From Zygnema cylindricum (taxonomy: Eukaryota; Streptophyta; Zygnematophyceae; Zygnematales; Zygnemataceae), in contig JBBHKE010002506.1 of assembly GCA_037447655.1 (NCBI GenBank), positions 197,650-261,649 on the forward strand: a stretch of 64,000 bases of DNA, given 5' to 3'. Positions 2,791 to 30,269 of the stretch are shown piece after piece. The notes below the pieces were generated by a model, which was given only the letters and a program-made list of their open reading frames with translations, was not told where the DNA came from and ran no database searches. Made by a program: the position numbers and the translations under genes. Position 1 is the first letter of the stretch. The number at the start of each line of letters is the position of its first letter.

Positions 2791-3240
2791 TATATCATGA
2801 ACACCACCATAGTAAAGTTTCTTATTTTCATTGTTAGATTTAGCCTAAATATCCCTTGGCTACCTTTTTTAGCAGTGAAATAAACTTCCTCCTCAAAACT
2901 AGTAGTAAAGACTCTTTTACTAATGCTAGTATCAAAACCCTTATCATCTAATACAGATGTAGAGATGAGGTTTTTGTTCAACCCCGGAAAAAAGAAAACA
3001 TCGGAGAATGTAACTATGGATGTCTTTTTTTAAGTACACTTTCAAATTTACCGATCCTACAAGAGTAGTAGTGACTATCCTCCCATCCCCAAACTCTATC
3101 TCTACGGAGGGAATCTTTCTTATCTTAGTGAAAAGGTGTTTATCCTTACACATGTGCAGGGAGGCACCTGAATCTACAATCCTGCGTACTTCACCTTTCA
3201 ATCCACGGAAAGCACATTTAAGCTTTTGTGGAATTTTGAC
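2790..3240 (-). pseudogene. copia protease and gag-pre-integrase domain (element A)
   Basis: The piece at 2944-3201 encodes an aspartic protease segment with the active site VDSGASLHMCKDKHLF, then VEIEFGDGRIVTTTLVGSV. The adjoining piece at 2790-2981 is the gag-pre-integrase domain (NLISTSVLDDKGF). The catalytic DSG triplet is intact. A frameshift near 2980 breaks the link between the two pieces. Confidence 0.8.
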
Positions 3241-3379
3241 CTTGTTTTCCCCTCCAACTCCTCATCCATTTCGTCCTCGTCCTCAGATTCCGCCTCATGT
3301 ACCTGTGTCACAAGGGCCTTTTTTTACCTCAGGGGGGTCCACCGGTCTGCCCCTCCTCTAACCGAAGTTCGGTTAGCTT

Positions 3380-4317: not shown

Positions 4318-4332
4318 GGTGGGCCCATAACT

Positions 4333-10162: not shown

Positions 10163-10218
10163 TGAAGGTGCTGAAGTACTTTTTATACGGCTATCGTACA
10201 GTATGTCCAAAATGTGGA
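10163..10218 (-). repeat. LTR C, right fragment
   Basis: The bases resemble the stretch that follows the break point in other LTRs (GGTGCTGAAGTACTTTTTATACGG... TGTCCAAAATGT). The match stops at about 10218, where RNase H coding sequence of fragment D begins. Confidence 0.6.
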
Positions 10219-12690
10219 CTCTCTTAGCTGCCCTCCAAACTCTTTTAGTGATAGCATTAAGATTTCCTCTTAGCACTCATACAGCTGCAGCTAAATCCGG
10301 CCGGGTACAATTCATAAAATTGATTAGGCTTCCTAGTACGTGCCTGTAAGGAATAGTCTATATGAATTTCTGTTCTTCAGGGCCTAGTTCCTTGTCTAAG
10401 ATTATGTCTCCTTCCACACTCCTCTCACTTCCCTTCTTTAACTCGATTGGAGTTGTACTACTATTAGCCTTATCCATCTGAAACATTTTCAACTTGTTCC
10501 ATATTGCTTCTTTCTGAGCTAGTCTTATAATCTTTCTTTCTCTGTCTTTTTCTATTTGAATTCCCAAAATATATCTTGCCTTCCCATATCCTTCATCTCA
10601 AATCTCCCATTAAGATCCGTTTTCAGTTTATTAATTTTGTCCATTGATTTACTTAGAACAAGCAAATCATCAACATAGATTGCAATAAAAACAACACCTT
10701 CTTCTTCTTCTTCAAAAACATAGATTGAGTGATCTGAGCTGATCCGGATATATCCCTGACCAGTAAAAAACTCATCAAGCTTCTTATTCGACCGTCGGGG
10801 CGCCTGTTTAAAACCATAAAGAGATTTAATCAGCCGTCATACCTTACTCTCCTCTCCTTCCTCCACAAATCCTTCGGGTTGTCGCATGAAGAGTTCCTCT
10901 TCCAATTCTCCATGCAAAAAGGTTGTCTAGATGTCCATCTAGTGAACCTCTATGTCTTCCGCTGCTGCCAAACTGAGAAGTATGTGGACAAAGGGAAATC
11001 TGATGACCGGGGTAAAGGTTTCCTTGTAGTTGAATCCCTCTTTCTGTGTAAATCCTTTTGCCACTAACCGGGCCTTGAATTGCTCAATGGTGTTATCTGA
11101 GTTCTGTTTTAATTTGAACACCCACTTACACCCGATTAGTTTTCGATTAGGTGGACAATCCACGAGCTCCTAAGTATTCGCTGCCATAATTGAGGGCATC
11201 TCCTTATTGATGGCTGTCTTCCACCGGTTCCTTTCTAGACAATTCATCGCCTCTCCATAAGTCTGAGGTTTATCCGGATGAGAGAGTTTTATTACCTTGT
11301 TATTAACTTGTTTTTCTAGCAACCTATCGCTACTTCTCCTTCCCCCCTCAAAATTTGCGGCTGAAATAGATGGTTCCCGTGGGTTCTTTCGAACAATCTC
11401 GGCTTCTCCCTTGTCCCTTGATTTCGAATCAATTTCCACCACGTGTTCCACTTTCGGTAGAGATGTCACTGGAGTTTCTGCCGCCGAGTCCTTTTCGGTC
11501 TGATTTGTATCTGCAAGAATGTCAACTTTTCTGAAGCCTGAATAGTTAGGACGCTCAAAGTCATCATAATTTCTTTACTCAAATCTGATTTTTACTGACT
11601 TTCTATACTTCAAGGGATCCATAGACTTTCCTTCATCCATAACTACTGGGTGCTTTACTAAGATTATATCTTCTCTTTTTAGATCATAAACTATCTATCA
11701 TTTTACATCCTCATCATATCGTAATAAGTACCCCTGTTTTCCTTTAGGATCTAGCTTCCAATTAGACTGATCTGTATCTAGACTGAACACTTGACTACCA
11801 AAAGTGGGATATGTCTGGTTTTCGGCCGGTCCATCTCTCATAAGGTGTTTGGCCTTTTACCGCTGAAGTAAGAACTCCATTTTTGAGGTAATTAGCACAG
11901 TTCATTGCTTCGGCCCAAAACCTTTTTCCTATCTTCTTATGCGACAACATACTTCTAGCACTATCACTGAGTGTTCTATTTAATCATTCAACTACCCCAT
12001 TCTGTTCCGCGTTTTCTGGAACTATCTTTTGGTGTTGAACTCCATCTTCCCTCAGGAAATCCTCAAACTGGTTAGAGGTATACTCTCCACCATTGTCACT
12101 CCTAACACTCTTGATTGGGGTTTCATGGAGTTTTTCACTCCATGCTTTATATTGTCTAAAACAATCCTAAGCCTCTGACTTATTTTTCAAAAAATACACC
12201 ATGGAATACCGAGCCGAATCATCAGTGATAGTCATCATAAATCTCTTCCCCCCGGGTGAAGGCACTTTGGCCGGTCCCCAAATATCTGTGTGTACTAAAT
12301 CTAGAATCTTTTCTCCATGATAGGTGGCTATTTTTGGGAAGGGTAACCTGTGTGCTTTACCTTGAGCACATCCACTACAATCACTTAGATTCTCACTCTC
12401 ACCAAACTGAATCCCTTCCACTACTCCCATCTTTTTCATCTCTCTTAACTTATCTAGATTCACATGCCCAAGCCTCTTATGCCACAACATTATATCATGA
12501 ACACTAGCATGACAAAGTTTCTTTTTTTTTGCCTTAAATCAGCCTAAACATCCCTTGGCTACCTTTTTGACATTGAAATAAACCTCCTCAACATGGCTAC
12601 CTTTTTCGGTGAAATAAACTTCCTCTCAAAACCGTGAGACTTTTTCCTAATGCTAGTATCAAAACCCTTACCATCTAATAAAGATAAGTC
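10219..12690 (-). pseudogene. copia pol fragment D (RNase H start, RT, integrase)
   Basis: Minus-strand pieces appear in pol order: gag-pre-integrase and integrase N-terminus at 12167-12490 (LWHKRLGHVNLDKLREMKK; zinc-site DCSGCAQGKAHRLPFP; HTDIWGP), integrase tail and linker at 11170-12166, RT start at 10939-11163 (GCKWVFKLKQN), and late RT at 10358-10567. There is no LTR on either side. Both ends are abrupt: one at LTR C (10218) and one where RNase H of element E begins (12690). The 12530-12690 stretch looks scrambled, with a short repeated CTACCTTTTT segment. Confidence 0.8.
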
Positions 12691-13215
12691 TTATGTCCAT
12701 GTGTTTGGCTTTAAAATGATGTTTAGGATTGGCAAAAATTGCGATTGCTGCTTGATTATCACAAAAAACTTTCTGCACACCACTCTTAAGGTGACCAAGC
12801 TCACCAAACAAAGACTTGACCCACATCAATTCTTAAACAGTATATCAAGAGGCCATATACTCAGCCTCCATGGTGGACTGAGCAATAACCTTTTGCTGTT
12901 TGCTACTCCAACAACAAGCTCCATCACCCACATACAATACATATCCAGAAGTACATCTCATCGGAGCATCACCATGACTAGCATCACTCCAAGTAGTGAT
13001 GTTAGTATTCCCTCCACCCTAATGCGACCATAGATCCCTAGTTCCTATCAAATATCTAAAGACTCTCTTAGCTGCCTCCCAATCTCTCTTAGTGGGAGCA
13101 TTTAGACTTCTACTCTGCACTCCTACTGCTGCAGCCAAATCCGGTCGGGTACAATTCATAAACATATTAGGCTTCCCACTACTTGCCTGTAATGAATAGT
13201 CTACATAAACTTATG
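12691..13215 (-). pseudogene. RNase H remnant of element E
   Basis: Reading the minus strand in pieces gives the landmarks of copia RNase H: an ITTWSDASYGDAPMRC-like stretch, CWSSKQQKVIAQST-like bases near 12880-12910, and the CDNQ / KHHFKAKHMD end near 12700-12760. Several frameshifts and stops are present. The real C-terminus is lost at the 12690 junction. Confidence 0.7.
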
Positions 13216-14091
13216 TTATTCCGGAACTAATTCCTCATCTAAGATTATGACTCTTTCTTCCACACTCCCCTCACTTCCCTTCTTCAACTCCATTAGAGTG
13301 GTACAACTATTAGCCTTATCCATCTGAAACTTTTCCAACATGTTCCCTATTGCTTCTTTTTGAGTTAGTCTTATAATCTTTCTTTCTTGGTCTCTTTCTA
13401 CTTGAATTCCCAAAATATATCTTGCCTCCCCCATATCCTTCATCTCAAATCTCCCCTTAAGATCGGTTTTCAGTTTATTTATTTTGTCCATTGATTTACT
13501 TAGAACAAGCAAATCATCAACATAAATTGCAATAAAAATAATACCTTCCTCATCTTCAAAAACATAGATTGAGTGATCTGAGCTGATCTCGATATATTCC
13601 ACACCTGTAAGAAACTCATCAAGCTTCTTATTCCACTGTCGGGGCGCATGTTTCAAACCATAAAGAGATTTAATCAACCGGCATGCCTTACTCTCCTCTC
13701 CTTGCTCCACAAATCCTTCGGGTTGTCGCATGAAGATCTCCTCTTCCAATTCTCCATGCAAAAAGGCTGTCTTGATGTCCATCTGGTGCACCTCTATGTC
13801 TTTCGCTGTTGCCAAACTGACAAGTATGCGGACGGAGGGAAATCTCGCGACCGGGGCAAATGTTTCCTTGTAGTTGATTCCCTCTTTTTTTGTGAATCCT
13901 TTAGCCACTAACCAGGCCTTGTAGCGCTCAATGGTGTTATCTGGGTTCAGTTTTAATTTGAACACCCACTTATAACCAATTGGTTTTCGCTTAGGTGGGC
14001 AAGCCAACAACTCCCAAGTATCGACTGCCATAATTAAGGCCATCTCCTCATTAACGACTGCCTTCCACCGATTCCTATCTGGACAATTCAT
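13216..14091 (-). pseudogene. reverse transcriptase of element E (291 aa open)
   Basis: This is the best preserved RT in the window. It runs from MNCPDRNRWKAVVNEEM through GYKWVFKLKLNPDNTIERY, HQMDIKTAFLHGELEEEIFM, SLYGLKHAPRQWNKKLDEF, the catalytic FIAIYVDDLLVLSKS, and DMGEARYILGIQVERD. The MDIKTAFLHG and YVDD motifs supply the expected catalytic Asp residues. RT copies element RNA into cDNA. In a live copia it is part of a single polyprotein, so this open stretch is a surviving fragment and not a gene with its own start. Confidence 0.85.
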
Positions 14092-14737
14092 TGCCTCTCC
14101 ATAATTCTGAGGTTCATCCTAATGAGAGAGTTTTGTTACCTTGTTATTAGCTTGTTTTTCTTGCAACCTTTTGCTTCTTCTCCTTCCTCCCTCAAAATCT
14201 GTGGCCAAAATAGATGGTTCCTGTGGGTTATTTCGAACAATCTCGGCTTCTCCCCTGTCCCTCGACTCCGAATCAATTTCCATCACGTCTTTCGCTTCGG
14301 GTGGAGTGTCACTAGAATTTCCATGGCCAAGTCCTCGGTCTGATTTGTTTTTGTAAGAATGTCATCTTCTCTGAGACCAGAATATTTAGGAAGCTTAAAG
14401 TCTCGGAATTTTCTGACTCAAATCTGATTTTTACTGACTTTATATACTTGAAGGGATCCACATACTTTTCTTCATCCATAACTACTAGATGCTTTACTAA
14501 GATTATGTCTTCCCTTTTTAGATCATAAACTCTGTATCCTTTTCCATCCTGATCATATCCTAATAAATACTGCGGTTTTCTTTTAAGATCTAGCTTCTAA
14601 TTAGACCAATCTGTATCTAGACTAAACACTTGACTACCAAAAGCCTTTAAGTGGGATATGTTTGGTTTTTGACCGTTCTATATCTCATAAGGTGTTTGGC
14701 CTTTTACCGCTAAAGTAAGAACTCTATTTTTGAGGTA
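14092..14737 (-). pseudogene. integrase C-terminal part of element E, left of the array
   Basis: The sequence covers the integrase-RT linker (FEGGRR region near 14160-14200, DPFKYIK near 14430-14460) and the integrase tail (KNRVLTLAVKGQTPYEI, 14678-14760 on the minus strand). Coding continuity is cut by the array insertion, whose target duplication begins at 14738. Confidence 0.7.
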
Positions 14738-14742
14738 ATTAG
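14738..14742. repeat. target-site duplication of the array, left copy
   Basis: ATTAG stands directly before the first base (TGTTGT) of the first array LTR. The same five bases follow the last LTR at 26964-26968. In uninterrupted relatives (fragment D near 11888) this site is a single AATTAGCACAG, which confirms the insertion point. Confidence 0.95.
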
Positions 14743-15927
14743 TGTTGTTTTGAAAACTTAGTTTCGTGCGTACTACACACTTTGTGCGCACGCGACGTTT
14801 CGTGCGTAATTTGTTAAATGAATTTACTGTGGAGGTTCGAATGGATTCGCGGATTGGGGGAGTGAACATACAGATATATTGTTCTGGGACGAACGAAATA
14901 GTAATTGAGTGGCTCGGAATACGTTTGCAAATGGACGGCGGATCGTGAAGCGATCCGTTGTGAAATGTACGAAATGTTGAATATGTACGCCGCCGGTACG
15001 GAGCGTCTTATTTAGACAGGTGTACTTCATTTGCGACACGCTCATTTAATGCAAAAGACGCATGTTCAGTACGGAAAAGATTTTGAAGGTACGGTTTAAT
15101 TTCGGCAAGTGGGTCATGGTACATTTGGAGGGCGGACGGCGTCCGCCGATATTTTTCAAGGAATCGCAATTTTGATGACGTGGTATCAAGTGAACCGTAC
15201 GTATGTGATGTCGGTTCAATACGTGGTTTCGTCCACGAGTGAATAATCAAGTTGATACTCAGTACGCGGATTTTATGGAAGCGTCGGTGTAAACATTTTG
15301 ATTTAACATTGTTTTGTCTTTTTGTGCATTAATTATTAGTGTAGAATTACATTTTCTGACATACCTTGAATTATTCAAGTATACTCACATTAATTTAAGT
15401 AGATGGTAAATTACGTACGGCTGGTATGCCTCCGTACATTTAGTAGTAAGCCTGAGTGTATATATTGTAGAACTTAGTCATTTCAGGGCATAGGAACTTT
15501 CTGTACCAAAAACTGTTTATGATCATTTTTGGTAATTTTGTCTGAGTATTGCTCTCAGATCTGATGTCAGAATTATCTGAAATTCTGCATGTGTGTTCCT
15601 CTTTGTATTTTTAATATTATCACAGATTTGCAGGTCTATTGTGTGCCTGGTCTGTGTTTTACTTCATTGTGAAGTTAGTCTGTTTAATCAAAGTTCTGGC
15701 AGACTGTTTTTCTGCAACTTTGACTAGATGATGTGATCACTCTGATTATTATTTTTGTCTGAAACTTTGTGAGGTTATTCTATAGCCTATATACTATCTG
15801 TAAGTGTAGTTCCAGGTTATTTTGTTAATTCTGTTGAATTCTGTGTGTATCCAAAGTAGGCTGCTTTTGGGGTAGTCTGTGGTGCTTCCGAGGGTGAATC
15901 CATGGCTAGAAATGGCTATGGACAACA
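14743..15927 (+). repeat. array LTR 1
   Basis: The 1,185-bp repeat has perfect 6-bp inverted ends (TGTTGT / ACAACA). A TATA-like TATATATT lies at 15459-15466. An inverted repeat GGATCG(T)GAAGCGATCC sits at 14940-14956; here the base at 14946 is T where the other four LTRs have C. The last 26 bases contain the gag ATG, in the good context CCATGGCT. Confidence 0.95.
15459..15466 (+). promoter_or_regulatory. putative TATA box of array LTR 1
   Basis: TATATATT lies 717 bases into the LTR in a locally AT-rich setting, with about 440 bases to the gag ATG. Its position fits a U3 promoter, but no other core element can be proven. Equivalent sites occur every 2,759 bp in LTRs 2-5. Confidence 0.45.
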
Positions 15928-17185
15928 GGTTATGGGCCCACGCCCATGGCTACCCATACTGGATGAATCGTATTTACCCATATTTGATGGAACTGAATAT
16001 TATTGTTGGAGGAGTATTATGGAGAGCTACTTCAAGTTGAGGGAGCTTATGGATGTGGTGGATGGGACATGTGTCGAAACATCGGCTGAATGGGAGGAGA
16101 AAAACCTGGAGTGCTTGAGGATCATCAAGCTATCTATGACTGAGGAAATTGTAATGAGTTACCTTGATGTGAAGAGTGCAGCTGAATTGTGGAAGTGGTT
16201 GCAACGTATTTATCAAAAGACTTCTGTGTATCACTGGATGATTAGTGCTACAAAAATATTTGAGTATAAGTATGTTGGAGGTAGTGTGTTGAAATATTGC
16301 CTTAGTTTGCAAAGATTGTTTGCAGAAAATGATATTGCAGGAGGAAATTTTACGAATGTTCAAAAGGCTCTCATTTTAATGAAAGGATTACCTAAGGAAT
16401 ATAGGTGTGCGTTTGATAGATTAAACCAAGTTGATAAAAAGGATTGGAACTTACCATTAGCAATCAGATTTGTTTTGGATGTAGTAGATGATAAAAAGGC
16501 TTTAAAGGATAAGGGGGATTTTGAAGGTGTTAGATCACAGTTTCGGAAAAATAGAAAAAGTTGCAAATCAGAAAATTGCTTTTACTGTAATGATTTAGGA
16601 CATACTTTTAGAGTATGTCCATTATATAAAAGTGCATGTGTCACAGGAAATTTCAGAAACGGATGGGATGACGATCGAGTTCGACCCCCCACACGAAAGG
16701 ATACACTTCCAGTCGATAAATTTGTATACTTGCCGACTGTTGTTTTTCTAAATATGGAAAATGAGGAAGGAAGAGAAAAATTTGGTGTCACTGAAAATGG
16801 AGTGGAGAAAGAGGAAGAGGTGACAGACAATGATCTGGTTTCTGTCAATTTTTCCGACGACAGATTGGTGAGTGAAAAAGATTTACAGGAAGAAGAGGTT
16901 AATGTAGTGAGGATAGCTGGAGAGAGTGACGGTCAATTGGAAGTGGAAACTGAAAATAATTTGCACGAGGAGATTACTGTACCTAAAGAGAGAGAGAGAA
17001 AAAGTGCTCAGAAAATTGAAGTAGGAGAGGAAGATTATAATATTGGAAAAGAAAACAAATGTTCAAAAATTGAGAAAATACCAAAATTTATTAAGAAAGC
17101 AAAGAAAAGAAGTAGAAGTCAAAGGATAAGCCGTAGAAGAAAACATGTGCAGAAAATGGTCAAAAGAAAGCATCGTGAAAAATAA
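15902..17185 (+). CDS. gag: gag of array unit 1 (427 aa)
   Basis: The product is a complete, uninterrupted copia-type Gag, which would form particles and package RNA. The start ATG lies inside LTR 1: residues 1-9 (MARNGYGQQ) come from LTR bases plus the junction, and the next codons (VMGPR) are the PBS. Residues about 20-200 are the gag helical domain (PIFDGTEYYCWRSIMESYFK; AAELWKWLQRIYQK; LKYCLSLQRLF). Residues 226-239 are one zinc knuckle, CFYCNDLGHTFRVC (CX2CX4HX4C). The rest has no pol homology: an acidic stretch (about 285-385) and then a strongly basic tail of about 40 residues (KKAKKRSRSQ...KRKHREK) that could be a nuclear or RNA-binding signal. The start choice rests on the match of the upstream LTR-coded residues with the LTR-started gags of the other elements. 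Confidence 0.9.
   Translation: MARNGYGQQVMGPRPWLPILDESYLPIFDGTEYYCWRSIMESYFKLRELMDVVDGTCVETSAEWEEKNLECLRIIKLSMTEEIVMSYLDVKSAAELWKWLQRIYQKTSVYHWMISATKIFEYKYVGGSVLKYCLSLQRLFAENDIAGGNFTNVQKALILMKGLPKEYRCAFDRLNQVDKKDWNLPLAIRFVLDVVDDKKALKDKGDFEGVRSQFRKNRKSCKSENCFYCNDLGHTFRVCPLYKSACVTGNFRNGWDDDRVRPPTRKDTLPVDKFVYLPTVVFLNMENEEGREKFGVTENGVEKEEEVTDNDLVSVNFSDDRLVSEKDLQEEEVNVVRIAGESDGQLEVETENNLHEEITVPKERERKSAQKIEVGEEDYNIGKENKCSKIEKIPKFIKKAKKRSRSQRISRRRKHVQKMVKRKHREK
15928..15941 (+). promoter_or_regulatory. half-tRNA primer-binding site, unit 1
   Basis: GGTTATGGGCCCAC begins at the first base after the LTR. It is complementary over 14 bases to the anticodon stem-loop of plant initiator tRNA-Met, not to the tRNA 3' end. 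Equivalent sites are at 18687, 21446 and 24205. Confidence 0.8.
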
Positions 17186-17369
17186 TTTTAGAGGAGTGAC
17201 TATCTTTTACATTAAGTAATCTTTTTGAGGAATTTCCAATTTAAAACTTTGAATTTTGAAATTGTGTGAGAAGGAAAGTTTTTACTTTTGAAGACCTAGA
17301 AAGAGGTAGTGGAAGCAATGGTGTGTTTAAGAAGGAAGGATTTTGGAAGACATGGCAGCAGGCAGTGGG

Positions 17370-17427
17370 AGCAGTGGTGACGTCAGCGGAAACAGTGGTG
17401 ACGTCAGCGGAAGCAGTGGTGACATTT
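17370..17427 (+). repeat. three 21-bp repeats with TGACGTCA boxes, unit 1
   Basis: The units share GCAGTGGTGACGTCAGCGGAA. Perfect palindromes TGACGTCA occur at 17378-17385 and 17399-17406, and a decayed TGACATTT at 17420, each 21 bases apart. The palindrome is the classic core for TGA/CREB-type bZIP factors. The cluster lies about 75-120 bases upstream of the next LTR and recurs in units 2-4. Confidence 0.75.
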
Positions 17428-17494
17428 GAACGAAATGTACAGTTACATTTCAAACGCGGTATATTTTACTATGGGTGCACGAAACTAAATTTTC

Positions 17495-17501
17495 GGGGGA
17501 G
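17495..17501 (+). promoter_or_regulatory. polypurine tract, unit 1
   Basis: GGGGGAG directly precedes LTR 2 and would prime plus-strand DNA. The same tract is at 20254, 23013 and 25772. Confidence 0.8.
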
Positions 17502-18686
17502 TGTTGTTTTGAAAACTTAGTTTCGTGCGTACTACACACTTTGTGCGCACGCGACGTTTCGTGCGTAATTTGTTAAATGAATTTACTGTGGAGGTTCGAA
17601 TGGATTCGCGGATTGGGGGAGTGAACATACAGATATATTGTTCTGGGACGAACGAAATAGTAATTGAGTGGCTCGGAATACGTTTGCAAATGGACGGCGG
17701 ATCGCGAAGCGATCCGTTGTGAAATGTACGAAATGTTGAATATGTACGCCGCCGGTACGGAGCGTCTTATTTAGACAGGTGTACTTCATTTGCGACACGC
17801 TCATTTAATGCAAAAGACGCATGTTCAGTACGGAAAAGATTTTGAAGGTACGGTTTAATTTCGGCAAGTGGGTCATGGTACATTTGGAGGGCGGACGGCG
17901 TCCGCCGATATTTTTCAAGGAATCGCAATTTTGATGACGTGGTATCAAGTGAACCGTACGTATGTGATGTCGGTTCAATACGTGGTTTCGTCCACGAGTG
18001 AATAATCAAGTTGATACTCAGTACGCGGATTTTATGGAAGCGTCGGTGTAAACATTTTGATTTAACATTGTTTTGTCTTTTTGTGCATTAATTATTAGTG
18101 TAGAATTACATTTTCTGACATACCTTGAATTATTCAAGTATACTCACATTAATTTAAGTAGATGGTAAATTACGTACGGCTGGTATGCCTCCGTACATTT
18201 AGTAGTAAGCCTGAGTGTATATATTGTAGAACTTAGTCATTTCAGGGCATAGGAACTTTCTGTACCAAAAACTGTTTATGATCATTTTTGGTAATTTTGT
18301 CTGAGTATTGCTCTCAGATCTGATGTCAGAATTATCTGAAATTCTGCATGTGTGTTCCTCTTTGTATTTTTAATATTATCACAGATTTGCAGGTCTATTG
18401 TGTGCCTGGTCTGTGTTTTACTTCATTGTGAAGTTAGTCTGTTTAATCAAAGTTCTGGCAGACTGTTTTTCTGCAACTTTGACTAGATGATGTGATCACT
18501 CTGATTATTATTTTTGTCTGAAACTTTGTGAGGTTATTCTATAGCCTATATACTATCTGTAAGTGTAGTTCCAGGTTATTTTGTTAATTCTGTTGAATTC
18601 TGTGTGTATCCAAAGTAGGCTGCTTTTGGGGTAGTCTGTGGTGCTTCCGAGGGTGAATCCATGGCTAGAAATGGCTATGGACAACA
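17502..18686 (+). repeat. array LTR 2
   Basis: This copy equals LTR 1 except for C at 17705, which restores the perfect hairpin GGATCGCGAAGCGATCC (17699-17715). It serves at once as 3' LTR of unit 1 and 5' LTR of unit 2. Confidence 0.95.
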
Positions 18687-19944
18687 GGTTATGGGCCCAC
18701 GCCCATGGCTACCCATACTGGATGAATCGTATTTACCCATATTTGATGGAACTGAATATTATTGTTGGAGGAGTATTATGGAGAGCTACTTCAAGTTGAG
18801 GGAGCTTATGGATGTGGTGGATGGGACATGTGTCGAAACATCGGCTGAATGGGAGGAGAAAAACCTGGAGTGCTTGAGGATCATCAAGCTATCTATGACT
18901 GAGGAAATTGTAATGAGTTACCTTGATGTGAAGAGTGCAGCTGAATTGTGGAAGTGGTTGCAACGTATTTATCAAAAGACTTCTGTGTATCACTGGATGA
19001 TTAGTGCTACAAAAATATTTGAGTATAAGTATGTTGGAGGTAGTGTGTTGAAATATTGCCTTAGTTTGCAAAGATTGTTTGCAGAAAATGATATTGCAGG
19101 AGGAAATTTTACGAATGTTCAAAAGGCTCTCATTTTAATGAAAGGATTACCTAAGGAATATAGGTGTGCGTTTGATAGATTAAACCAAGTTGATAAAAAG
19201 GATTGGAACTTACCATTAGCAATCAGATTTGTTTTGGATGTAGTAGATGATAAAAAGGCTTTAAAGGATAAGGGGGATTTTGAAGGTGTTAGATCACAGT
19301 TTCGGAAAAATAGAAAAAGTTGCAAATCAGAAAATTGCTTTTACTGTAATGATTTAGGACATACTTTTAGAGTATGTCCATTATATAAAAGTGCATGTGT
19401 CACAGGAAATTTCAGAAACGGATGGGATGACGATCGAGTTCGACCCCCCACACGAAAGGATACACTTCCAGTCGATAAATTTGTATACTTGCCGACTGTT
19501 GTTTTTCTAAATATGGAAAATGAGGAAGGAAGAGAAAAATTTGGTGTCACTGAAAATGGAGTGGAGAAAGAGGAAGAGGTGACAGACAATGATCTGGTTT
19601 CTGTCAATTTTTCCGACGACAGATTGGTGAGTGAAAAAGATTTACAGGAAGAAGAGGTTAATGTAGTGAGGATAGCTGGAGAGAGTGACGGTCAATTGGA
19701 AGTGGAAACTGAAAATAATTTGCACGAGGAGATTACTGTACCTAAAGAGAGAGAGAGAAAAAGTGCTCAGAAAATTGAAGTAGGAGAGGAAGATTATAAT
19801 ATTGGAAAAGAAAACAAATGTTCAAAAATTGAGAAAATACCAAAATTTATTAAGAAAGCAAAGAAAAGAAGTAGAAGTCAAAGGATAAGCCGTAGAAGAA
19901 AACATGTGCAGAAAATGGTCAAAAGAAAGCATCGTGAAAAATAA
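18661..19944 (+). CDS. gag: gag of array unit 2 (427 aa)
   Basis: The protein is identical to that of unit 1 in all 427 residues, including the LTR-encoded start, the zinc knuckle at 226-239 and the basic tail. The frame is fully open. The PBS equivalent is at 18687-18700 and the 21-bp TGACGTCA cluster begins at about 20129. Confidence 0.9.
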   Translation: MARNGYGQQVMGPRPWLPILDESYLPIFDGTEYYCWRSIMESYFKLRELMDVVDGTCVETSAEWEEKNLECLRIIKLSMTEEIVMSYLDVKSAAELWKWLQRIYQKTSVYHWMISATKIFEYKYVGGSVLKYCLSLQRLFAENDIAGGNFTNVQKALILMKGLPKEYRCAFDRLNQVDKKDWNLPLAIRFVLDVVDDKKALKDKGDFEGVRSQFRKNRKSCKSENCFYCNDLGHTFRVCPLYKSACVTGNFRNGWDDDRVRPPTRKDTLPVDKFVYLPTVVFLNMENEEGREKFGVTENGVEKEEEVTDNDLVSVNFSDDRLVSEKDLQEEEVNVVRIAGESDGQLEVETENNLHEEITVPKERERKSAQKIEVGEEDYNIGKENKCSKIEKIPKFIKKAKKRSRSQRISRRRKHVQKMVKRKHREK

Positions 19945-20260
19945 TTTTAGAGGAGTGACTATCTTTTACATTAAGTAATCTTTTTGAGGAATTTCCAATT
20001 TAAAACTTTGAATTTTGAAATTGTGTGAGAAGGAAAGTTTTTACTTTTGAAGACCTAGAAAGAGGTAGTGGAAGCAATGGTGTGTTTAAGAAGGAAGGAT
20101 TTTGGAAGACATGGCAGCAGGCAGTGGGAGCAGTGGTGACGTCAGCGGAAACAGTGGTGACGTCAGCGGAAGCAGTGGTGACATTTGAACGAAATGTACA
20201 GTTACATTTCAAACGCGGTATATTTTACTATGGGTGCACGAAACTAAATTTTCGGGGGAG

Positions 20261-21445
20261 TGTTGTTTTGAAAACTTAGTTTCGTGCGTACTACACACTT
20301 TGTGCGCACGCGACGTTTCGTGCGTAATTTGTTAAATGAATTTACTGTGGAGGTTCGAATGGATTCGCGGATTGGGGGAGTGAACATACAGATATATTGT
20401 TCTGGGACGAACGAAATAGTAATTGAGTGGCTCGGAATACGTTTGCAAATGGACGGCGGATCGCGAAGCGATCCGTTGTGAAATGTACGAAATGTTGAAT
20501 ATGTACGCCGCCGGTACGGAGCGTCTTATTTAGACAGGTGTACTTCATTTGCGACACGCTCATTTAATGCAAAAGACGCATGTTCAGTACGGAAAAGATT
20601 TTGAAGGTACGGTTTAATTTCGGCAAGTGGGTCATGGTACATTTGGAGGGCGGACGGCGTCCGCCGATATTTTTCAAGGAATCGCAATTTTGATGACGTG
20701 GTATCAAGTGAACCGTACGTATGTGATGTCGGTTCAATACGTGGTTTCGTCCACGAGTGAATAATCAAGTTGATACTCAGTACGCGGATTTTATGGAAGC
20801 GTCGGTGTAAACATTTTGATTTAACATTGTTTTGTCTTTTTGTGCATTAATTATTAGTGTAGAATTACATTTTCTGACATACCTTGAATTATTCAAGTAT
20901 ACTCACATTAATTTAAGTAGATGGTAAATTACGTACGGCTGGTATGCCTCCGTACATTTAGTAGTAAGCCTGAGTGTATATATTGTAGAACTTAGTCATT
21001 TCAGGGCATAGGAACTTTCTGTACCAAAAACTGTTTATGATCATTTTTGGTAATTTTGTCTGAGTATTGCTCTCAGATCTGATGTCAGAATTATCTGAAA
21101 TTCTGCATGTGTGTTCCTCTTTGTATTTTTAATATTATCACAGATTTGCAGGTCTATTGTGTGCCTGGTCTGTGTTTTACTTCATTGTGAAGTTAGTCTG
21201 TTTAATCAAAGTTCTGGCAGACTGTTTTTCTGCAACTTTGACTAGATGATGTGATCACTCTGATTATTATTTTTGTCTGAAACTTTGTGAGGTTATTCTA
21301 TAGCCTATATACTATCTGTAAGTGTAGTTCCAGGTTATTTTGTTAATTCTGTTGAATTCTGTGTGTATCCAAAGTAGGCTGCTTTTGGGGTAGTCTGTGG
21401 TGCTTCCGAGGGTGAATCCATGGCTAGAAATGGCTATGGACAACA
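20261..21445 (+). repeat. array LTR 3
   Basis: Reads as identical to LTR 2, directly after the GGGGGAG tract at 20254-20260. Confidence 0.95.
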
Positions 21446-22703
21446 GGTTATGGGCCCACGCCCATGGCTACCCATACTGGATGAATCGTATTTACCCATA
21501 TTTGATGGAACTGAATATTATTGTTGGAGGAGTATTATGGAGAGCTACTTCAAGTTGAGGGAGCTTATGGATGTGGTGGATGGGACATGTGTCGAAACAT
21601 CGGCTGAATGGGAGGAGAAAAACCTGGAGTGCTTGAGGATCATCAAGCTATCTATGACTGAGGAAATTGTAATGAGTTACCTTGATGTGAAGAGTGCAGC
21701 TGAATTGTGGAAGTGGTTGCAACGTATTTATCAAAAGACTTCTGTGTATCACTGGATGATTAGTGCTACAAAAATATTTGAGTATAAGTATGTTGGAGGT
21801 AGTGTGTTGAAATATTGCCTTAGTTTGCAAAGATTGTTTGCAGAAAATGATATTGCAGGAGGAAATTTTACGAATGTTCAAAAGGCTCTCATTTTAATGA
21901 AAGGATTACCTAAGGAATATAGGTGTGCGTTTGATAGATTAAACCAAGTTGATAAAAAGGATTGGAACTTACCATTAGCAATCAGATTTGTTTTGGATGT
22001 AGTAGATGATAAAAAGGCTTTAAAGGATAAGGGGGATTTTGAAGGTGTTAGATCACAGTTTCGGAAAAATAGAAAAAGTTGCAAATCAGAAAATTGCTTT
22101 TACTGTAATGATTTAGGACATACTTTTAGAGTATGTCCATTATATAAAAGTGCATGTGTCACAGGAAATTTCAGAAACGGATGGGATGACGATCGAGTTC
22201 GACCCCCCACACGAAAGGATACACTTCCAGTCGATAAATTTGTATACTTGCCGACTGTTGTTTTTCTAAATATGGAAAATGAGGAAGGAAGAGAAAAATT
22301 TGGTGTCACTGAAAATGGAGTGGAGAAAGAGGAAGAGGTGACAGACAATGATCTGGTTTCTGTCAATTTTTCCGACGACAGATTGGTGAGTGAAAAAGAT
22401 TTACAGGAAGAAGAGGTTAATGTAGTGAGGATAGCTGGAGAGAGTGACGGTCAATTGGAAGTGGAAACTGAAAATAATTTGCACGAGGAGATTACTGTAC
22501 CTAAAGAGAGAGAGAGAAAAAGTGCTCAGAAAATTGAAGTAGGAGAGGAAGATTATAATATTGGAAAAGAAAACAAATGTTCAAAAATTGAGAAAATACC
22601 AAAATTTATTAAGAAAGCAAAGAAAAGAAGTAGAAGTCAAAGGATAAGCCGTAGAAGAAAACATGTGCAGAAAATGGTCAAAAGAAAGCATCGTGAAAAA
22701 TAA
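21420..22703 (+). CDS. gag: gag of array unit 3 (427 aa)
   Basis: The protein is identical to that of units 1, 2 and 4. The frame is open from the ATG inside LTR 3 to the TAA. The PBS is at 21446-21459. Confidence 0.9.
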   Translation: MARNGYGQQVMGPRPWLPILDESYLPIFDGTEYYCWRSIMESYFKLRELMDVVDGTCVETSAEWEEKNLECLRIIKLSMTEEIVMSYLDVKSAAELWKWLQRIYQKTSVYHWMISATKIFEYKYVGGSVLKYCLSLQRLFAENDIAGGNFTNVQKALILMKGLPKEYRCAFDRLNQVDKKDWNLPLAIRFVLDVVDDKKALKDKGDFEGVRSQFRKNRKSCKSENCFYCNDLGHTFRVCPLYKSACVTGNFRNGWDDDRVRPPTRKDTLPVDKFVYLPTVVFLNMENEEGREKFGVTENGVEKEEEVTDNDLVSVNFSDDRLVSEKDLQEEEVNVVRIAGESDGQLEVETENNLHEEITVPKERERKSAQKIEVGEEDYNIGKENKCSKIEKIPKFIKKAKKRSRSQRISRRRKHVQKMVKRKHREK

Positions 22704-23019
22704 TTTTAGAGGAGTGACTATCTTTTACATTAAGTAATCTTTTTGAGGAATTTCCAATTTAAAACTTTGAATTTTGAAATTGTGTGAGAAGGAAAGTTTT
22801 TACTTTTGAAGACCTAGAAAGAGGTAGTGGAAGCAATGGTGTGTTTAAGAAGGAAGGATTTTGGAAGACATGGCAGCAGGCAGTGGGAGCAGTGGTGACG
22901 TCAGCGGAAACAGTGGTGACGTCAGCGGAAGCAGTGGTGACATTTGAACGAAATGTACAGTTACATTTCAAACGCGGTATATTTTACTATGGGTGCACGA
23001 AACTAAATTTTCGGGGGAG

Positions 23020-24204
23020 TGTTGTTTTGAAAACTTAGTTTCGTGCGTACTACACACTTTGTGCGCACGCGACGTTTCGTGCGTAATTTGTTAAATGAAT
23101 TTACTGTGGAGGTTCGAATGGATTCGCGGATTGGGGGAGTGAACATACAGATATATTGTTCTGGGACGAACGAAATAGTAATTGAGTGGCTCGGAATACG
23201 TTTGCAAATGGACGGCGGATCGCGAAGCGATCCGTTGTGAAATGTACGAAATGTTGAATATGTACGCCGCCGGTACGGAGCGTCTTATTTAGACAGGTGT
23301 ACTTCATTTGCGACACGCTCATTTAATGCAAAAGACGCATGTTCAGTACGGAAAAGATTTTGAAGGTACGGTTTAATTTCGGCAAGTGGGTCATGGTACA
23401 TTTGGAGGGCGGACGGCGTCCGCCGATATTTTTCAAGGAATCGCAATTTTGATGACGTGGTATCAAGTGAACCGTACGTATGTGATGTCGGTTCAATACG
23501 TGGTTTCGTCCACGAGTGAATAATCAAGTTGATACTCAGTACGCGGATTTTATGGAAGCGTCGGTGTAAACATTTTGATTTAACATTGTTTTGTCTTTTT
23601 GTGCATTAATTATTAGTGTAGAATTACATTTTCTGACATACCTTGAATTATTCAAGTATACTCACATTAATTTAAGTAGATGGTAAATTACGTACGGCTG
23701 GTATGCCTCCGTACATTTAGTAGTAAGCCTGAGTGTATATATTGTAGAACTTAGTCATTTCAGGGCATAGGAACTTTCTGTACCAAAAACTGTTTATGAT
23801 CATTTTTGGTAATTTTGTCTGAGTATTGCTCTCAGATCTGATGTCAGAATTATCTGAAATTCTGCATGTGTGTTCCTCTTTGTATTTTTAATATTATCAC
23901 AGATTTGCAGGTCTATTGTGTGCCTGGTCTGTGTTTTACTTCATTGTGAAGTTAGTCTGTTTAATCAAAGTTCTGGCAGACTGTTTTTCTGCAACTTTGA
24001 CTAGATGATGTGATCACTCTGATTATTATTTTTGTCTGAAACTTTGTGAGGTTATTCTATAGCCTATATACTATCTGTAAGTGTAGTTCCAGGTTATTTT
24101 GTTAATTCTGTTGAATTCTGTGTGTATCCAAAGTAGGCTGCTTTTGGGGTAGTCTGTGGTGCTTCCGAGGGTGAATCCATGGCTAGAAATGGCTATGGAC
24201 AACA
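23020..24204 (+). repeat. array LTR 4
   Basis: Reads as identical to LTRs 2 and 3, following the purine tract at 23013-23019. Confidence 0.95.
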
Positions 24205-25462
24205 GGTTATGGGCCCACGCCCATGGCTACCCATACTGGATGAATCGTATTTACCCATATTTGATGGAACTGAATATTATTGTTGGAGGAGTATTATGGA
24301 GAGCTACTTCAAGTTGAGGGAGCTTATGGATGTGGTGGATGGGACATGTGTCGAAACATCGGCTGAATGGGAGGAGAAAAACCTGGAGTGCTTGAGGATC
24401 ATCAAGCTATCTATGACTGAGGAAATTGTAATGAGTTACCTTGATGTGAAGAGTGCAGCTGAATTGTGGAAGTGGTTGCAACGTATTTATCAAAAGACTT
24501 CTGTGTATCACTGGATGATTAGTGCTACAAAAATATTTGAGTATAAGTATGTTGGAGGTAGTGTGTTGAAATATTGCCTTAGTTTGCAAAGATTGTTTGC
24601 AGAAAATGATATTGCAGGAGGAAATTTTACGAATGTTCAAAAGGCTCTCATTTTAATGAAAGGATTACCTAAGGAATATAGGTGTGCGTTTGATAGATTA
24701 AACCAAGTTGATAAAAAGGATTGGAACTTACCATTAGCAATCAGATTTGTTTTGGATGTAGTAGATGATAAAAAGGCTTTAAAGGATAAGGGGGATTTTG
24801 AAGGTGTTAGATCACAGTTTCGGAAAAATAGAAAAAGTTGCAAATCAGAAAATTGCTTTTACTGTAATGATTTAGGACATACTTTTAGAGTATGTCCATT
24901 ATATAAAAGTGCATGTGTCACAGGAAATTTCAGAAACGGATGGGATGACGATCGAGTTCGACCCCCCACACGAAAGGATACACTTCCAGTCGATAAATTT
25001 GTATACTTGCCGACTGTTGTTTTTCTAAATATGGAAAATGAGGAAGGAAGAGAAAAATTTGGTGTCACTGAAAATGGAGTGGAGAAAGAGGAAGAGGTGA
25101 CAGACAATGATCTGGTTTCTGTCAATTTTTCCGACGACAGATTGGTGAGTGAAAAAGATTTACAGGAAGAAGAGGTTAATGTAGTGAGGATAGCTGGAGA
25201 GAGTGACGGTCAATTGGAAGTGGAAACTGAAAATAATTTGCACGAGGAGATTACTGTACCTAAAGAGAGAGAGAGAAAAAGTGCTCAGAAAATTGAAGTA
25301 GGAGAGGAAGATTATAATATTGGAAAAGAAAACAAATGTTCAAAAATTGAGAAAATACCAAAATTTATTAAGAAAGCAAAGAAAAGAAGTAGAAGTCAAA
25401 GGATAAGCCGTAGAAGAAAACATGTGCAGAAAATGGTCAAAAGAAAGCATCGTGAAAAATAA
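24179..25462 (+). CDS. gag: gag of array unit 4 (427 aa)
   Basis: This last full gag is again residue-for-residue identical to the others. The PBS is at 24205-24218 and the polypurine tract at 25772-25778 leads into the terminal LTR. Confidence 0.9.
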   Translation: MARNGYGQQVMGPRPWLPILDESYLPIFDGTEYYCWRSIMESYFKLRELMDVVDGTCVETSAEWEEKNLECLRIIKLSMTEEIVMSYLDVKSAAELWKWLQRIYQKTSVYHWMISATKIFEYKYVGGSVLKYCLSLQRLFAENDIAGGNFTNVQKALILMKGLPKEYRCAFDRLNQVDKKDWNLPLAIRFVLDVVDDKKALKDKGDFEGVRSQFRKNRKSCKSENCFYCNDLGHTFRVCPLYKSACVTGNFRNGWDDDRVRPPTRKDTLPVDKFVYLPTVVFLNMENEEGREKFGVTENGVEKEEEVTDNDLVSVNFSDDRLVSEKDLQEEEVNVVRIAGESDGQLEVETENNLHEEITVPKERERKSAQKIEVGEEDYNIGKENKCSKIEKIPKFIKKAKKRSRSQRISRRRKHVQKMVKRKHREK

Positions 25463-25778
25463 TTTTAGAGGAGTGACTATCTTTTACATTAAGTAATCTT
25501 TTTGAGGAATTTCCAATTTAAAACTTTGAATTTTGAAATTGTGTGAGAAGGAAAGTTTTTACTTTTGAAGACCTAGAAAGAGGTAGTGGAAGCAATGGTG
25601 TGTTTAAGAAGGAAGGATTTTGGAAGACATGGCAGCAGGCAGTGGGAGCAGTGGTGACGTCAGCGGAAACAGTGGTGACGTCAGCGGAAGCAGTGGTGAC
25701 ATTTGAACGAAATGTACAGTTACATTTCAAACGCGGTATATTTTACTATGGGTGCACGAAACTAAATTTTCGGGGGAG

Positions 25779-26963
25779 TGTTGTTTTGAAAACTTAGTTT
25801 CGTGCGTACTACACACTTTGTGCGCACGCGACGTTTCGTGCGTAATTTGTTAAATGAATTTACTGTGGAGGTTCGAATGGATTCGCGGATTGGGGGAGTG
25901 AACATACAGATATATTGTTCTGGGACGAACGAAATAGTAATTGAGTGGCTCGGAATACGTTTGCAAATGGACGGCGGATCGCGAAGCGATCCGTTGTGAA
26001 ATGTACGAAATGTTGAATATGTACGCCGCCGGTACGGAGCGTCTTATTTAGACAGGTGTACTTCATTTGCGACACGCTCATTTAATGCAAAAGACGCATG
26101 TTCAGTACGGAAAAGATTTTGAAGGTACGGTTTAATTTCGGCAAGTGGGTCATGGTACATTTGGAGGGCGGACGGCGTCCGCCGATATTTTTCAAGGAAT
26201 CGCAATTTTGATGACGTGGTATCAAGTGAACCGTACGTATGTGATGTCGGTTCAATACGTGGTTTCGTCCACGAGTGAATAATCAAGTTGATACTCAGTA
26301 CGCGGATTTTATGGAAGCGTCGGTGTAAACATTTTGATTTAACATTGTTTTGTCTTTTTGTGCATTAATTATTAGTGTAGAATTACATTTTCTGACATAC
26401 CTTGAATTATTCAAGTATACTCACATTAATTTAAGTAGATGGTAAATTACGTACGGCTGGTATGCCTCCGTACATTTAGTAGTAAGCCTGAGTGTATATA
26501 TTGTAGAACTTAGTCATTTCAGGGCATAGGAACTTTCTGTACCAAAAACTGTTTATGATCATTTTTGGTAATTTTGTCTGAGTATTGCTCTCAGATCTGA
26601 TGTCAGAATTATCTGAAATTCTGCATGTGTGTTCCTCTTTGTATTTTTAATATTATCACAGATTTGCAGGTCTATTGTGTGCCTGGTCTGTGTTTTACTT
26701 CATTGTGAAGTTAGTCTGTTTAATCAAAGTTCTGGCAGACTGTTTTTCTGCAACTTTGACTAGATGATGTGATCACTCTGATTATTATTTTTGTCTGAAA
26801 CTTTGTGAGGTTATTCTATAGCCTATATACTATCTGTAAGTGTAGTTCCAGGTTATTTTGTTAATTCTGTTGAATTCTGTGTGTATCCAAAGTAGGCTGC
26901 TTTTGGGGTAGTCTGTGGTGCTTCCGAGGGTGAATCCATGGCTAGAAATGGCTATGGACAACA
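25779..26963 (+). repeat. array LTR 5 (terminal)
   Basis: This complete LTR ends CAACA at 26963 and is followed by the second ATTAG. It includes the gag ATG (26938) and eight complete codons, after which the frame runs into antisense integrase sequence of E. Confidence 0.95.
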
Positions 26964-26968
26964 ATTAG
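26964..26968. repeat. target-site duplication of the array, right copy
   Basis: ATTAG matches 14738-14742. Confidence 0.95.
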
Positions 26969-27600
26969 CACATTTCATTGCTTCGGCCCAAAACCTTTTT
27001 CCTATCCTCTTATCCGACAACATACTTCTAGCACTATCACTTTGTGTTCTATTTAATCATTCATCTACCCCATTCTGTTCCGGGTTTTCTGGAACAGTCG
27101 TTTGGTGTTGGACTCCACCTTCCCTCATAAAATCCTCAAACTGGTTAGAGGGATACCCTCCACCATTGTCACTCCTTACTCTCTTGATTGGGGTTTCATG
27201 GAGTTTTTCACTCCATGCTTTATATTGTTTAAAACATTGTTGAGCCTTTGACTTATTTTTCAAAATATACACCTTCGAATACCGAGACCAATCATCACTG
27301 ATAGTCATCATAAATCTCTTCGCCTTGGGTGAAGGCACTTAGGCCGGTCCCCAAATATCTGTGTGTACTAAAACTAGAATATTTTCTCCCTTATAGGTGG
27401 CAGTTTTTAGGAAGGGTAACCTGTGTGCTTTACCTTAAGCACATCCACTACAATCACTTAGATTCTCACTCTCACCAAACTGAATCCCTTCCACTACTCC
27501 CATCTTTTTCATCTTTTTTTACTTATCTAGATTCACATGCCCAAGCCTCTTATGCCACAAAATTATATCATGAACACCAGCATAATAAAGTTTCTTCTTT
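26969..27600 (-). pseudogene. integrase of element E, right of the array
   Basis: The minus strand gives RFWAEAMKCAN next to the insertion, then the core: PEQNGVDE (27057-27338 frame; normal relatives read PEQNGVAE), RVRSDNGGGYPSNQFEDFM, and DDWSRYSKVYILKNKSKAQQCFKQY. The HTDIWGP-like first Asp region and the zinc-binding part follow to 27600. Stops interrupt the N-terminal half. The core Asp and Glu of the DDE set are visible in SDNG and PEQNG. Confidence 0.8.
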
Positions 27601-28160
27601 TCATTGCTTAAAATCAGCCTTAACATCCCTTGGCTGCCTTTTTGAGCAGTGAAATAAACTTTCTCCTCAAAACAGCAGTAAAGACTCTTTTCCTTGTGCT
27701 ACTATTAAAACCCTTGTCATCTAATACTGATGTAAAGATGAGGTTTTTGTTCATCTCTCGAATAAACAATATATCGGAGAATGTCACTATGGATGTCTTT
27801 CCTTCTACTAACACTTTCACATCTATCGATCGTAGAAGAGTAGTAGTGACTATTCTTCATCCCCGTACTCTATCTCTACGGTGGAAATCTTTCTTATCTT
27901 AGTGAACAAGTGTTTATCCTTACACATGTGCATAGAGGCACCTGAATCTACAATCTAGCATGCTTCACCTTTCAATCCACCGAAAGCACATTTCTACTTT
28001 AGTGGAATTTTGACCTCGTTTTTCGCCTCCAACTCCTCATCCAATAGGAGCTCATTGTCCTCGTCCTCGAATTCCGCCTCATGTACCTGTGTCACAAGGG
28101 CCTTTTTCTTTCCTCTCGATGGTCCACCGATCTGGCCCTCCTTTAAACGCAGCTCGGTTA
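27600..28160 (-). pseudogene. protease and gag-pre-integrase domain of element E
   Basis: The piece at 27620-27820 encodes KTSIVTFSDILFIREMNKNLIFTSVLDDKGF. The protease site near 27905-27960 reads IVDSGASMHMCKDKHL with an intact DSG, but a stop lies just before it. The acidic linker before the protease lies at about 28010-28100. Confidence 0.75.
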
Positions 28161-29107
28161 ACTTAGTGCACTCGGCGATATAGTGCCTTGGTTTCTTACA
28201 AAAGTGTCACAAACCGTTGGGAGCCCTTGGTCCGAACTCGTCAGTCTGATTTATCTGCCCCCCCCCCCCTACATAATTTCCGACCGATTTCTCGGAATCA
28301 TTGTTCCTCCAATTGGTTCTGCTGCCAAGGCTTTCCCACTCTTTCCTCCCCTTCGGATCTCAATTGTATTCTACCAAACGTGAATCATCTCTACCATTAA
28401 ATTCCATATCCATATTGAGTCGGGCAAGTCCCGCACACGGTTGATTATGTTCTCGAACTCATCTAGTAACTTCATGAGCAAATAGTTAACCTTCATCTTT
28501 TTAGTTTCAACCTGTCCAACACTCTCTAGCTCCATAAAAAGTGTTGCAAGCTCATTACAAAAGTCCAACATCTTTCCCCCCTTGTATTCATATGTGTTAA
28601 TTTTTTGATCAGCCAACTGCTGTTGCTGAATCGTACCACTTCCGTACATCTCTATGAGAGCCACCCAAAGATCGGATGCCCTCTGTACCTGCAAATGAGG
28701 AGATGCAAGCACTTAGTATCACGGCAGAGGATGAATTTCTTTGCCGCCATATTGTTGTAGTCCCAGGCATCAATATCATTCTCCTCGTTCCTCGGAATAG
28801 TCGACATGAATGTCGAACCTGTTGCTATTTGTGTGACTGTCTCCTTTTCCTTTCCTTTGTCCACCACCTCCCCTTCCTTTGTCTTTTCCGTTAGAGATGG
28901 ATCTGCATCTTTGGTGAATCTGTTTCCTGTAAACCTTGGAGGGATCCCAAGACTGGATGGACGCCTCACCCGTCCACTCACTATTCCCCAAAACCTTTTC
29001 TCACATAGAGCTCCTATCATCATAATTTCCCACTATATGAAGCCAGTTCCATTGAAGATGGGTACCCTAGAGGGTGGGCCCATAACGTGCAACTCTGAGA
29101 CCTCCAT
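28160..29107 (-). pseudogene. gag of element E
   Basis: The frame should start at the ATG at 29107, inside the 5' LTR, and read through the PBS. Surviving pieces are 28652-29023 and 28371-28712 (DLWVALIEMYGSGTIQQQQ; GGKMLDFCNELATLFMELES). The zinc knuckle at about 28185-28225 has its first Cys codon changed to the stop TGA (then HFCKKPRHYIAEC). Confidence 0.8.
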
Positions 29108-30269
29108 AGGTCCTCAGAGTAAAAAGCTCACACGAAGCCTCTAGGATAACCCTGACCCCTTTGTGTTTAAGCAAGAATAACTGTCACCATGACAGAGAAA
29201 AACTCTGACCACCTTCACCCCTATGAAGGCAAGACTCCCTTGAGTCTATAGCAAAAAGAATCTCTGAATTTGCTCTCTTGAGCAGTAAGTTATGGGTGGT
29301 CAAAAATGACCTTTATATTTACAAGATCTCTTAGAGAGAGGTACCTCAATATAACTAAGTCTTGGTTTCCCTACTCACGACTACCTACTACTAAACCCTT
29401 GTCCAATTGGAACACTATATATTAGAAGAAGGTACAATGGGCGATGTACTTATTGTACGTCTATTGTACGACATAGTCTACAAGGTAACACTTCTCAAAT
29501 TGGGAGCCATGGTTCCTCCTCCCATCTTCTCCGGTATCAAATAATGCGGCGCAACGTGGCACCGCGTGACGCTATCTCTGAATGCCTCCAAAAGCTCACT
29601 TTGGATGGCGGCTACAATGTTGGCCGTCCGATCTAAACATATTTTACACGGTTCAGATTCACGTACGTGAATGAATTGTTCCTCTTCGTTAGTTTGGTGA
29701 AAATTAGCCGGTTCGTTAATATTTATATATCTTTGAAATCCGTCACGTCTATCGTTTTGTTGCGTCTTAATGATTAAGGCATCTGGCTATATAAAATCTA
29801 GAGGTCGCAGATTCAAATCTGGACTTAGGCAATATTTTGGTAAAACATCATCTACTTCAAAATCTCCCTCCTTTCTAAATATGGCGGTAGCCATGGCGTG
29901 CCATTGATCCTCACTCTCTCTCTCTTTAAAGTATAACTAAAATAGAGAAATGAACTATTAATTACCTCTTTTCAACAAGAACTATCTGTCTCTCTCTAGA
30001 AAGCACAAGCAGCCATGGCTATTGCTCCCTCATCAACCTTTAGTGAGTGCGACAAGTGTGGGAGTTCAAGATAGGAGTTAGAGGGAGAATACCTCAACTA
30101 CCTTTCTACATTTCATTTTAGATCTAGAAAATACTAAAATAACATCAACCTTTAGTGAGTGTGACAAGTGTGGGAGTTCAAGATAGGAGTTAGAGGGAGA
30201 ATACCTCAGCTACCTTTCTACATTTCATTTTAGATCTAGAAAATACTAAAATAACCAATTATTTCTACA
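29088..30269 (-). repeat. 5' LTR of element E, with PBS at 29073-29087
   Basis: The LTR starts TGCAACTCTGAG and ends CTACA; it is 1,182 bp. The outer end contains a 112-bp tandem duplication (30031-30142 and 30143-30254). An antisense tRNA-like stretch lies at about 29760-29842, with B-box-like GATTCAAATCTGG and a TTTTGGTAAA run after it. Confidence 0.85.

Follow-up and report, generated by a model that had tools for sequence, protein, structure and literature searches.

A five-LTR, four-unit tandem array of a putative gag-only copia-type retrotransposon at one insertion site in Zygnema cylindricum

A single retrotransposon insertion normally has two LTRs, and an insert with five LTRs between one pair of target site duplications (TSDs) raises the question of how it acquired the others. 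Such an insert lies in a 64,000-nucleotide stretch of Zygnema cylindricum DNA (contig JBBHKE010002506.1, positions 197,650 to 261,649), hereafter the window. As assembled, the 12,221 bp from 14743 to 26963 consist of five LTRs of 1,185 bp alternating head-to-tail with four internal regions of 1,574 bp (Table 1). When the window was aligned to a copy of itself shifted by 2,759 bp, 14741-24204 matched with a single mismatch, at 14946, which makes the whole array periodic and bears out the four LTR-internal units plus LTR, of exactly this period, proposed in an earlier, sequence-only reading. The period is not due to chance: between 14 and 28 kb identity was 76% at this lag and at most 29% at lags other than multiples of 2,759. 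All five LTRs open with TGTTG and close with CAACA. The single ATTAG pair described before was found again, and none of the 13 further occurrences of ATTAG between its two members adjoins an inner LTR, each of which has GGGAG before it and GGTTA after it. With n internal regions, n+1 LTRs, shared inner LTRs and one TSD pair, the array has the structure that defines a tandem LTR retrotransposon.

Table 1. Positions of the array, its components and related features in the window
Feature	Position	Strand	Remarks
5' TSD, ATTAG	14738..14742	.	direct reading; ATTAG-like target single in paralogues
LTR1, 1185 bp	14743..15927	+	TGTTG...CAACA; bears the only variant of the array (14946 T); periodicity, reading
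LTR2	17502..18686	+	periodicity, reading
LTR3	20261..21445	+	periodicity, reading
LTR4	23020..24204	+	periodicity, reading
LTR5	25779..26963	+	last 26 nt = first 26 nt of gag; periodicity, reading
3' TSD, ATTAG	26964..26968	.	direct reading
Internal region 1, 1574 bp	15928..17501	+	copies 18687-20260, 21446-23019, 24205-25778
gag ORF 1, 427 aa	15902..17185	+	Retrotran_gag_2; start inside LTR1; ORF list, Pfam
gag ORF 2	18661..19944	+	ORF list
gag ORF 3	21420..22703	+	ORF list
gag ORF 4	24179..25462	+	ORF list
Putative primer binding site (PBS)	15928..15941	+	directly after LTR, in gag frame (codes VMGP); copies 18687, 21446, 24205
Three 21-bp direct repeats	17363..17425	+	non-coding tail of internal region 1
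Inverted repeat, 18 nt, 17/18 paired	17477..17528	+	16-nt loop = polypurine tract + LTR start
Polypurine tract GGGGGAG	17495..17501	+	direct reading; copies before LTR3, LTR4, LTR5
Host copia element, left part as compared	13000..14742	-	RT ORF 13216-14091 (RVT_2)
Host copia element, right part as compared	26969..29500	-	gag remnant 28371-28712, PBS at 29087, then LTR
Empty-site paralogue	11836-11955		96%, no gap
Empty-site paralogue	57844-57963		88%, no gap
Empty-site paralogue	2136-2256		82%, one 1-nt gap left of junction
Empty-site paralogue	34942-35030		73%, no gap
Diverged solo LTR, 1,410 bp	60346-61755		TGTTG...CAACA, flanked by CTAAT; inside LTR of copia element D

After removal of the array and one ATTAG, the joined flanks (60 + 60 nt) were searched against the window at E<=1e-8. 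The junction was crossed in all four paralogous stretches found (Table 1). Since these host stretches lack the insert and the array has one TSD pair, the array occupies one insertion site, as had been claimed. The host is a copia element, which must be older than the array that sits inside it. Compared over greater lengths, it shows 82-88% identity to three further copies in the window (449-4584, 10217-12591 and 56156-60276) and about 67-70% to an inverted copy near 34.0-36.8 kb. When its RT was used in a protein search, 5,019 of 5,484 candidates matched at E<=1e-3; among the 120 matches listed identity did not exceed 52%, and the 16 organism-named rows of that list were, counted by eye, 14 seed plants, one Phytophthora and one Acinetobacter.

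The four gag frames (427 aa each) are intact and identical, in agreement with the sequence-only reading. Their product matches Retrotran_gag_2 at 5e-15, is basic at its C-terminal end and contains a CCHC-like knuckle read by eye (CFYCNDLGHTFRVC), with no zf-CCHC match at E up to 10. In a phmmer search of the PDB sequences the Copia VLP protein 8s41 was the only chain with E<=1 (0.022, residues 26-185). The AlphaFold model, built from three sequences, is of low confidence (mean pLDDT 51.7, pTM 0.35); only one PDB entry matched it in Foldseek at E<=0.001, namely 8vvw, the capsid of Drosophila Copia (E 3.3e-4, rmsd 7.8, TM-score 0.48 by target length). Identity to two other copia gags of the window is 26% and 25%, so that the array gag is a separate, old lineage.

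The unit has no second ORF of at least 180 aa, and the internal region extends about 316 nt beyond gag. Of 25 stop-to-stop frames (at least 45 aa, overlapping the unit), eight, gag included, were given to Pfam, and no pol was found in these eight; the non-gag matches among them, Ty3_capsid in an antisense frame (E 0.019) and THSD1_N (E 0.028), fell below the curated cut-offs. The TG...CA LTRs, the 5-bp TSD and the copia-type gag are those of a Ty1/copia-type element, and the PR-IN-RT-RH pol of that type was not seen in the eight frames scanned. LTRs with one intact gag ORF and no pol are the marks of a TR-GAG, the lack of pol being judged from 8/25 frames. Since no pol was seen in the frames scanned, the unit appears to be a non-autonomous element, assigned to the copia type by its gag only, and to this extent the gag-only element of the earlier reading was confirmed. 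Classification as a TRIM was rejected: the LTR-internal-LTR unit measures 3,944 bp and has a 427-aa ORF, whereas TRIMs are described as very short and non-coding in the part of PMC4528315 consulted. In the window we saw no autonomous partner whose LTR or gag is close to that of the array. Searches for relatives elsewhere, which need shared 5-residue words and miss distant gags, gave 0 of 2,875 candidates at E<=1e-3 with the array gag and 0 of 4,132 with a three-gag alignment, and among viral contigs ten stretches fitted a pattern, with none confirmed.

From the ATG on, the first 26 nt of gag lie in the LTR, which thus contributes eight whole codons and two bases of the next, and because gag starts inside the LTR, the putative PBS (GGTTATGGGCCCAC) falls within the coding frame. 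Neither feature was mentioned in the earlier reading. Translation may instead begin at an ATG that lies two codons inside the internal region and encodes the M of VMGP. We take GGTTATGGGCCCAC to be the complement of the anticodon arm of the initiator tRNA-Met, its fourteenth base presumably suiting a plant rather than an animal tRNA. A half-tRNA primer derived from initiator tRNA-Met is known from Drosophila copia, whose PBS core we assume to be the same as that of the array, and the start of the Ty1 gag frame in the LTR is a precedent for the gag start observed here; Drosophila Copia and yeast Ty1 are autonomous, unlike the array unit. Outside the array, the 13-nt PBS core occurs in the window without mismatch at 60023, 38270 and 8958, with one mismatch at 29087 and 4332, and with two mismatches at four sites: 32811 and 54479, which are copia-like starts, and 26995 and 11922, which share one paralogous internal position and are probably chance matches. 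After omission of the last two, seven of the nine non-array sites were translated. All seven read VMGPP or VIGPP at the PBS, suggesting that the PBS doubles as gag codons in this copia group. Just before the PBS an in-frame Met-Glu is present in the LTR at six of the seven sites (4332 has Ile-Glu), and at four of these six the frame is open through to the PBS; further downstream all seven run into a stop, as decayed copies.

The sole variable column of the array is 14946, in CpG context, with T in LTR1 and C in LTR2-5. Thus the identity of the copies, as claimed earlier, holds for the four gag frames, and the units differ by this one C/T. With substitution rates of 1.3e-8 and 7e-9, one variant in 12,221 bp corresponds to an age of approximately 6-12 thousand years, with 35-65 thousand as the 95% upper bound, whereas LTR1 compared with LTR5 gives about 32-60 thousand years (upper bounds 181-336 thousand). 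If exchange homogenises the units, the whole-array figure is the date of the last homogenisation. The low divergence supports the youth implied by the recent expansion that the sequence-only reading had suggested. CpG content was abandoned as a clock because observed/expected values (array LTR 1.24, related solo LTR 1.63, array internal region 0.65) do not track age. The 14946 variant was equally uninformative for dating the expansion relative to the insertion: in a simulation of exchange (gains only, up to four units) a T variant older than the expansion ended in LTR1 alone in 14,041 of 20,000 runs, so its confinement to LTR1 cannot tell the two events apart in time.

Taking these observations together, we consider it probable (roughly 0.6) that a gag-only copia-type (TR-GAG-like) element inserted once and that homologous exchange between misaligned LTRs then took it from one unit to four. 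The element would have entered an old copia element, and exchange between sister chromatids or homologues would have added units in probably two or three steps; gain-only simulations reached four units by two events in 6,694 and by three in 13,306 of 20,000 runs. That one LTR is shared between adjacent internal regions indicates homologous joining and not end-joining; LTRs of 1,185 bp should offer ample homology for such an exchange. The length of the LTRs, the shared inner LTRs, the single TSD pair, the empty sites, the rice and maize parallels (see below) and a solo LTR in the same window all favour unequal exchange. This solo LTR, with its own TSD, is a sign that LTRs of this group have recombined with one another. 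Globally aligned, it shares 61% identity with the array LTR (20 shuffles: mean 43%, maximum 46%), rising to 74% over positions 279-603 of the array LTR, and both have a TATATA-like box (position 717 in the array LTR, 976 in the solo LTR); it is a diverged cousin of the array LTR, not an allele. Each inner LTR could serve as the 3' end of one unit and the 5' end of the next, and the locus is therefore expected to act as four overlapping elements, each a potential source of gag mRNA and of genomic RNA. To move, such an element would have to borrow protease, integrase and RT from an autonomous relative whose LTR ends, PBS and polypurine tract match its own.

The near-identity of the units fits equally well with single-step insertion, by integrase, of a multimer formed beforehand through LTR-LTR recombination of cDNA, one-LTR circles, template switching or a read-through tandem transcript. 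Such an insertion would also leave one TSD pair, and the array LTR has no AATAAA, which is weakly consistent with read-through; plants do not need an exact AATAAA signal. Simple end-joined cDNA is ruled out by the presence of one LTR at each junction where two are expected, so that of the cDNA concatemer proposed earlier as an alternative only a recombined form stands, and this requires an additional recombination, template-switch or read-through step. Routes of this kind are named in the available parts of PMC11899658 and PMC7215508, and we hold multimer insertion to be a possible but clearly less probable origin. Unequal LTR exchange, put forward in the sequence-only reading, fits the array and is the likeliest explanation, although the sequence cannot separate it from a recombined multimer and 14946 does not help.

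It is rather unlikely that the copy number is an assembly error and that the real allele has one, two or some other number of units. The units are told apart by one variant only, but the TSD is clean at both edges, beyond which the host sequence runs on just as in the paralogues, and 12.2 kb is within ordinary long-read length. Published cases point both ways: the reference missed one copy of an Arabidopsis tandem copia pair, an example of mis-assembly at this type of locus (PMC8704663, in part), whereas a rice tandem locus was confirmed by four spanning reads (PMC11899658, in part). The array sequence gives no support for the idea that further copies of the element inserted, nested or independently, into its LTRs; with the exact period and no TSD at the inner LTR edges this idea can be dismissed almost entirely, barring later gene conversion.

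The degree of surprise expressed in the sequence-only reading was overstated, because tandem LTR retrotransposons with one TSD are already common in plants, according to the parts of PMC11899658 consulted. There, tandem elements with TSDs are frequent and polymorphic in rice and occur also in Arabidopsis, almond and cotton; the rice pangenome yielded 266 candidates (IDENTAM set), and Nipponbare 28 clear cases, ten of which have perfect 5-nt TSDs. At one rice locus solo, single and tandem alleles are all found, and the choice between exchange after insertion and multimer insertion was left undecided. The rice loci detailed, TLI1 and TLI2, resemble the array in their shared inner LTRs, short single TSD and high identity, but have two units and three LTRs instead of four and five, and the rice tandems of that study are mostly gypsy whereas the array is copia-type and gag only. 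Among 89 intact maize Wukong elements, eight have three LTRs, five have four, and two have six and seven; these share the multi-LTR structure with the array, but Wukong is a 532-bp non-coding TRIM with 230-bp LTRs, its multi-LTR copies do not all have TSDs, and the array codes for gag (PMC4528315, in part). Long head-to-tail LTR/internal arrays are likewise formed by Cassandra, with recombination and template switching both proposed as origin, and at least 4,600 such structures are cited for barley BARE1; unlike the array, Cassandra is a TRIM that lacks gag and carries 5S rRNA sequence in its LTRs (PMC7215508, in part). The TR-GAGs also combine LTRs with a single GAG ORF. One Arabidopsis member transposes in ddm1 and has a close autonomous relative, whereas for the array none was seen in the window, and a tandem TR-GAG array such as this one is not described in the available part of PMC8704663. 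Among the papers listed by a limited literature search, judged by titles and the starts of abstracts, none described a four-unit tandem TR-GAG array. The array is thus a clean, young example of known tandem insertions and not a new kind; its notable points are the four copies in a gag-coding element and the near-identical units. Its youth, its four short units, the single variant and the empty sites in paralogues make it well suited for deciding between exchange and multimer origin; if transcribed, it could further show whether other elements are fed or restrained by gag-only copies.

An inverted repeat around the polypurine tract was not noted in the earlier reading. Its arms, GCACGAAACTAAATTTTC (17477-17494) and GAAAACTTAGTTTCGTGC (17511-17528), pair at 17 of 18 positions, and the loop consists exactly of GGGGGAG and the LTR start TGTTGTTTT. 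By the exact period, the hairpin is repeated at all four internal/LTR junctions; LTR1 has no such hairpin at its outer edge (z 0.48), nor was one seen in the single other element examined, D, whose corresponding junction folds no differently from shuffled sequence (z -0.64). That the hairpin acts in reverse transcription or recombination is speculative. We give little credence to the wider idea that tandem growth is a habit of the family, with the inverted repeat as a hotspot of breakage or template switching and the multi-promoter gag array as a store of Gag that drives or, through an excess of Gag, restrains the element itself and its relatives. Across the 2,818 bases examined, no other inverted repeat had 17/18 pairs with a 3-40 nt loop, and a comparable one arose in none of 60 first-order simulations. 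At the junction, fold z-scores were -3.9 (131 nt) and -4.5 (76 nt) for RNA and -7.1 for DNA.

Every internal/LTR junction of the tandem array carries an 18-nt inverted repeat, with the polypurine tract (PPT) lying within its loop (17477-17528, and again at +2759, +5518 and +8277); no counterpart of this PPT inverted repeat was found in element D, another copia element of the window. The non-coding tail of the internal region contains three 21-bp repeats (17363-17425), which include two CRE/bZIP-like TGACGTCA palindromes.

The core of the putative primer binding site (PBS) is common to the array and seven other copia sites, where it is located inside a gag-like frame, in VMGPP or VIGPP. The match was exact at three of these sites; two had one mismatch and two had two mismatches.

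Features of the window outside the array
Feature	Position	Strand
PBS-core sites (putative)	4332, 8958, 29087, 38270, 60023	minus
PBS-core sites (putative)	32811, 54479	plus
Frames for a Ty3/gypsy-type gag (Retrotrans_gag) and for an aspartyl protease (RVP_2)	50442-52493	minus
Copia element D	about 54608-62502	minus
Element D 3' LTR	about 54608-55675	minus
Element D 5' LTR, interrupted by the solo LTR	about 60026-62502	minus
Solo LTR, kin to the array LTR	60346-61755	

The two LTR pieces of element D match at 90-91%. The solo LTR has the target site duplication CTAAT, the reverse complement of the ATTAG of the array, and at a guess this pair, representing only two sites, might reflect a target preference.
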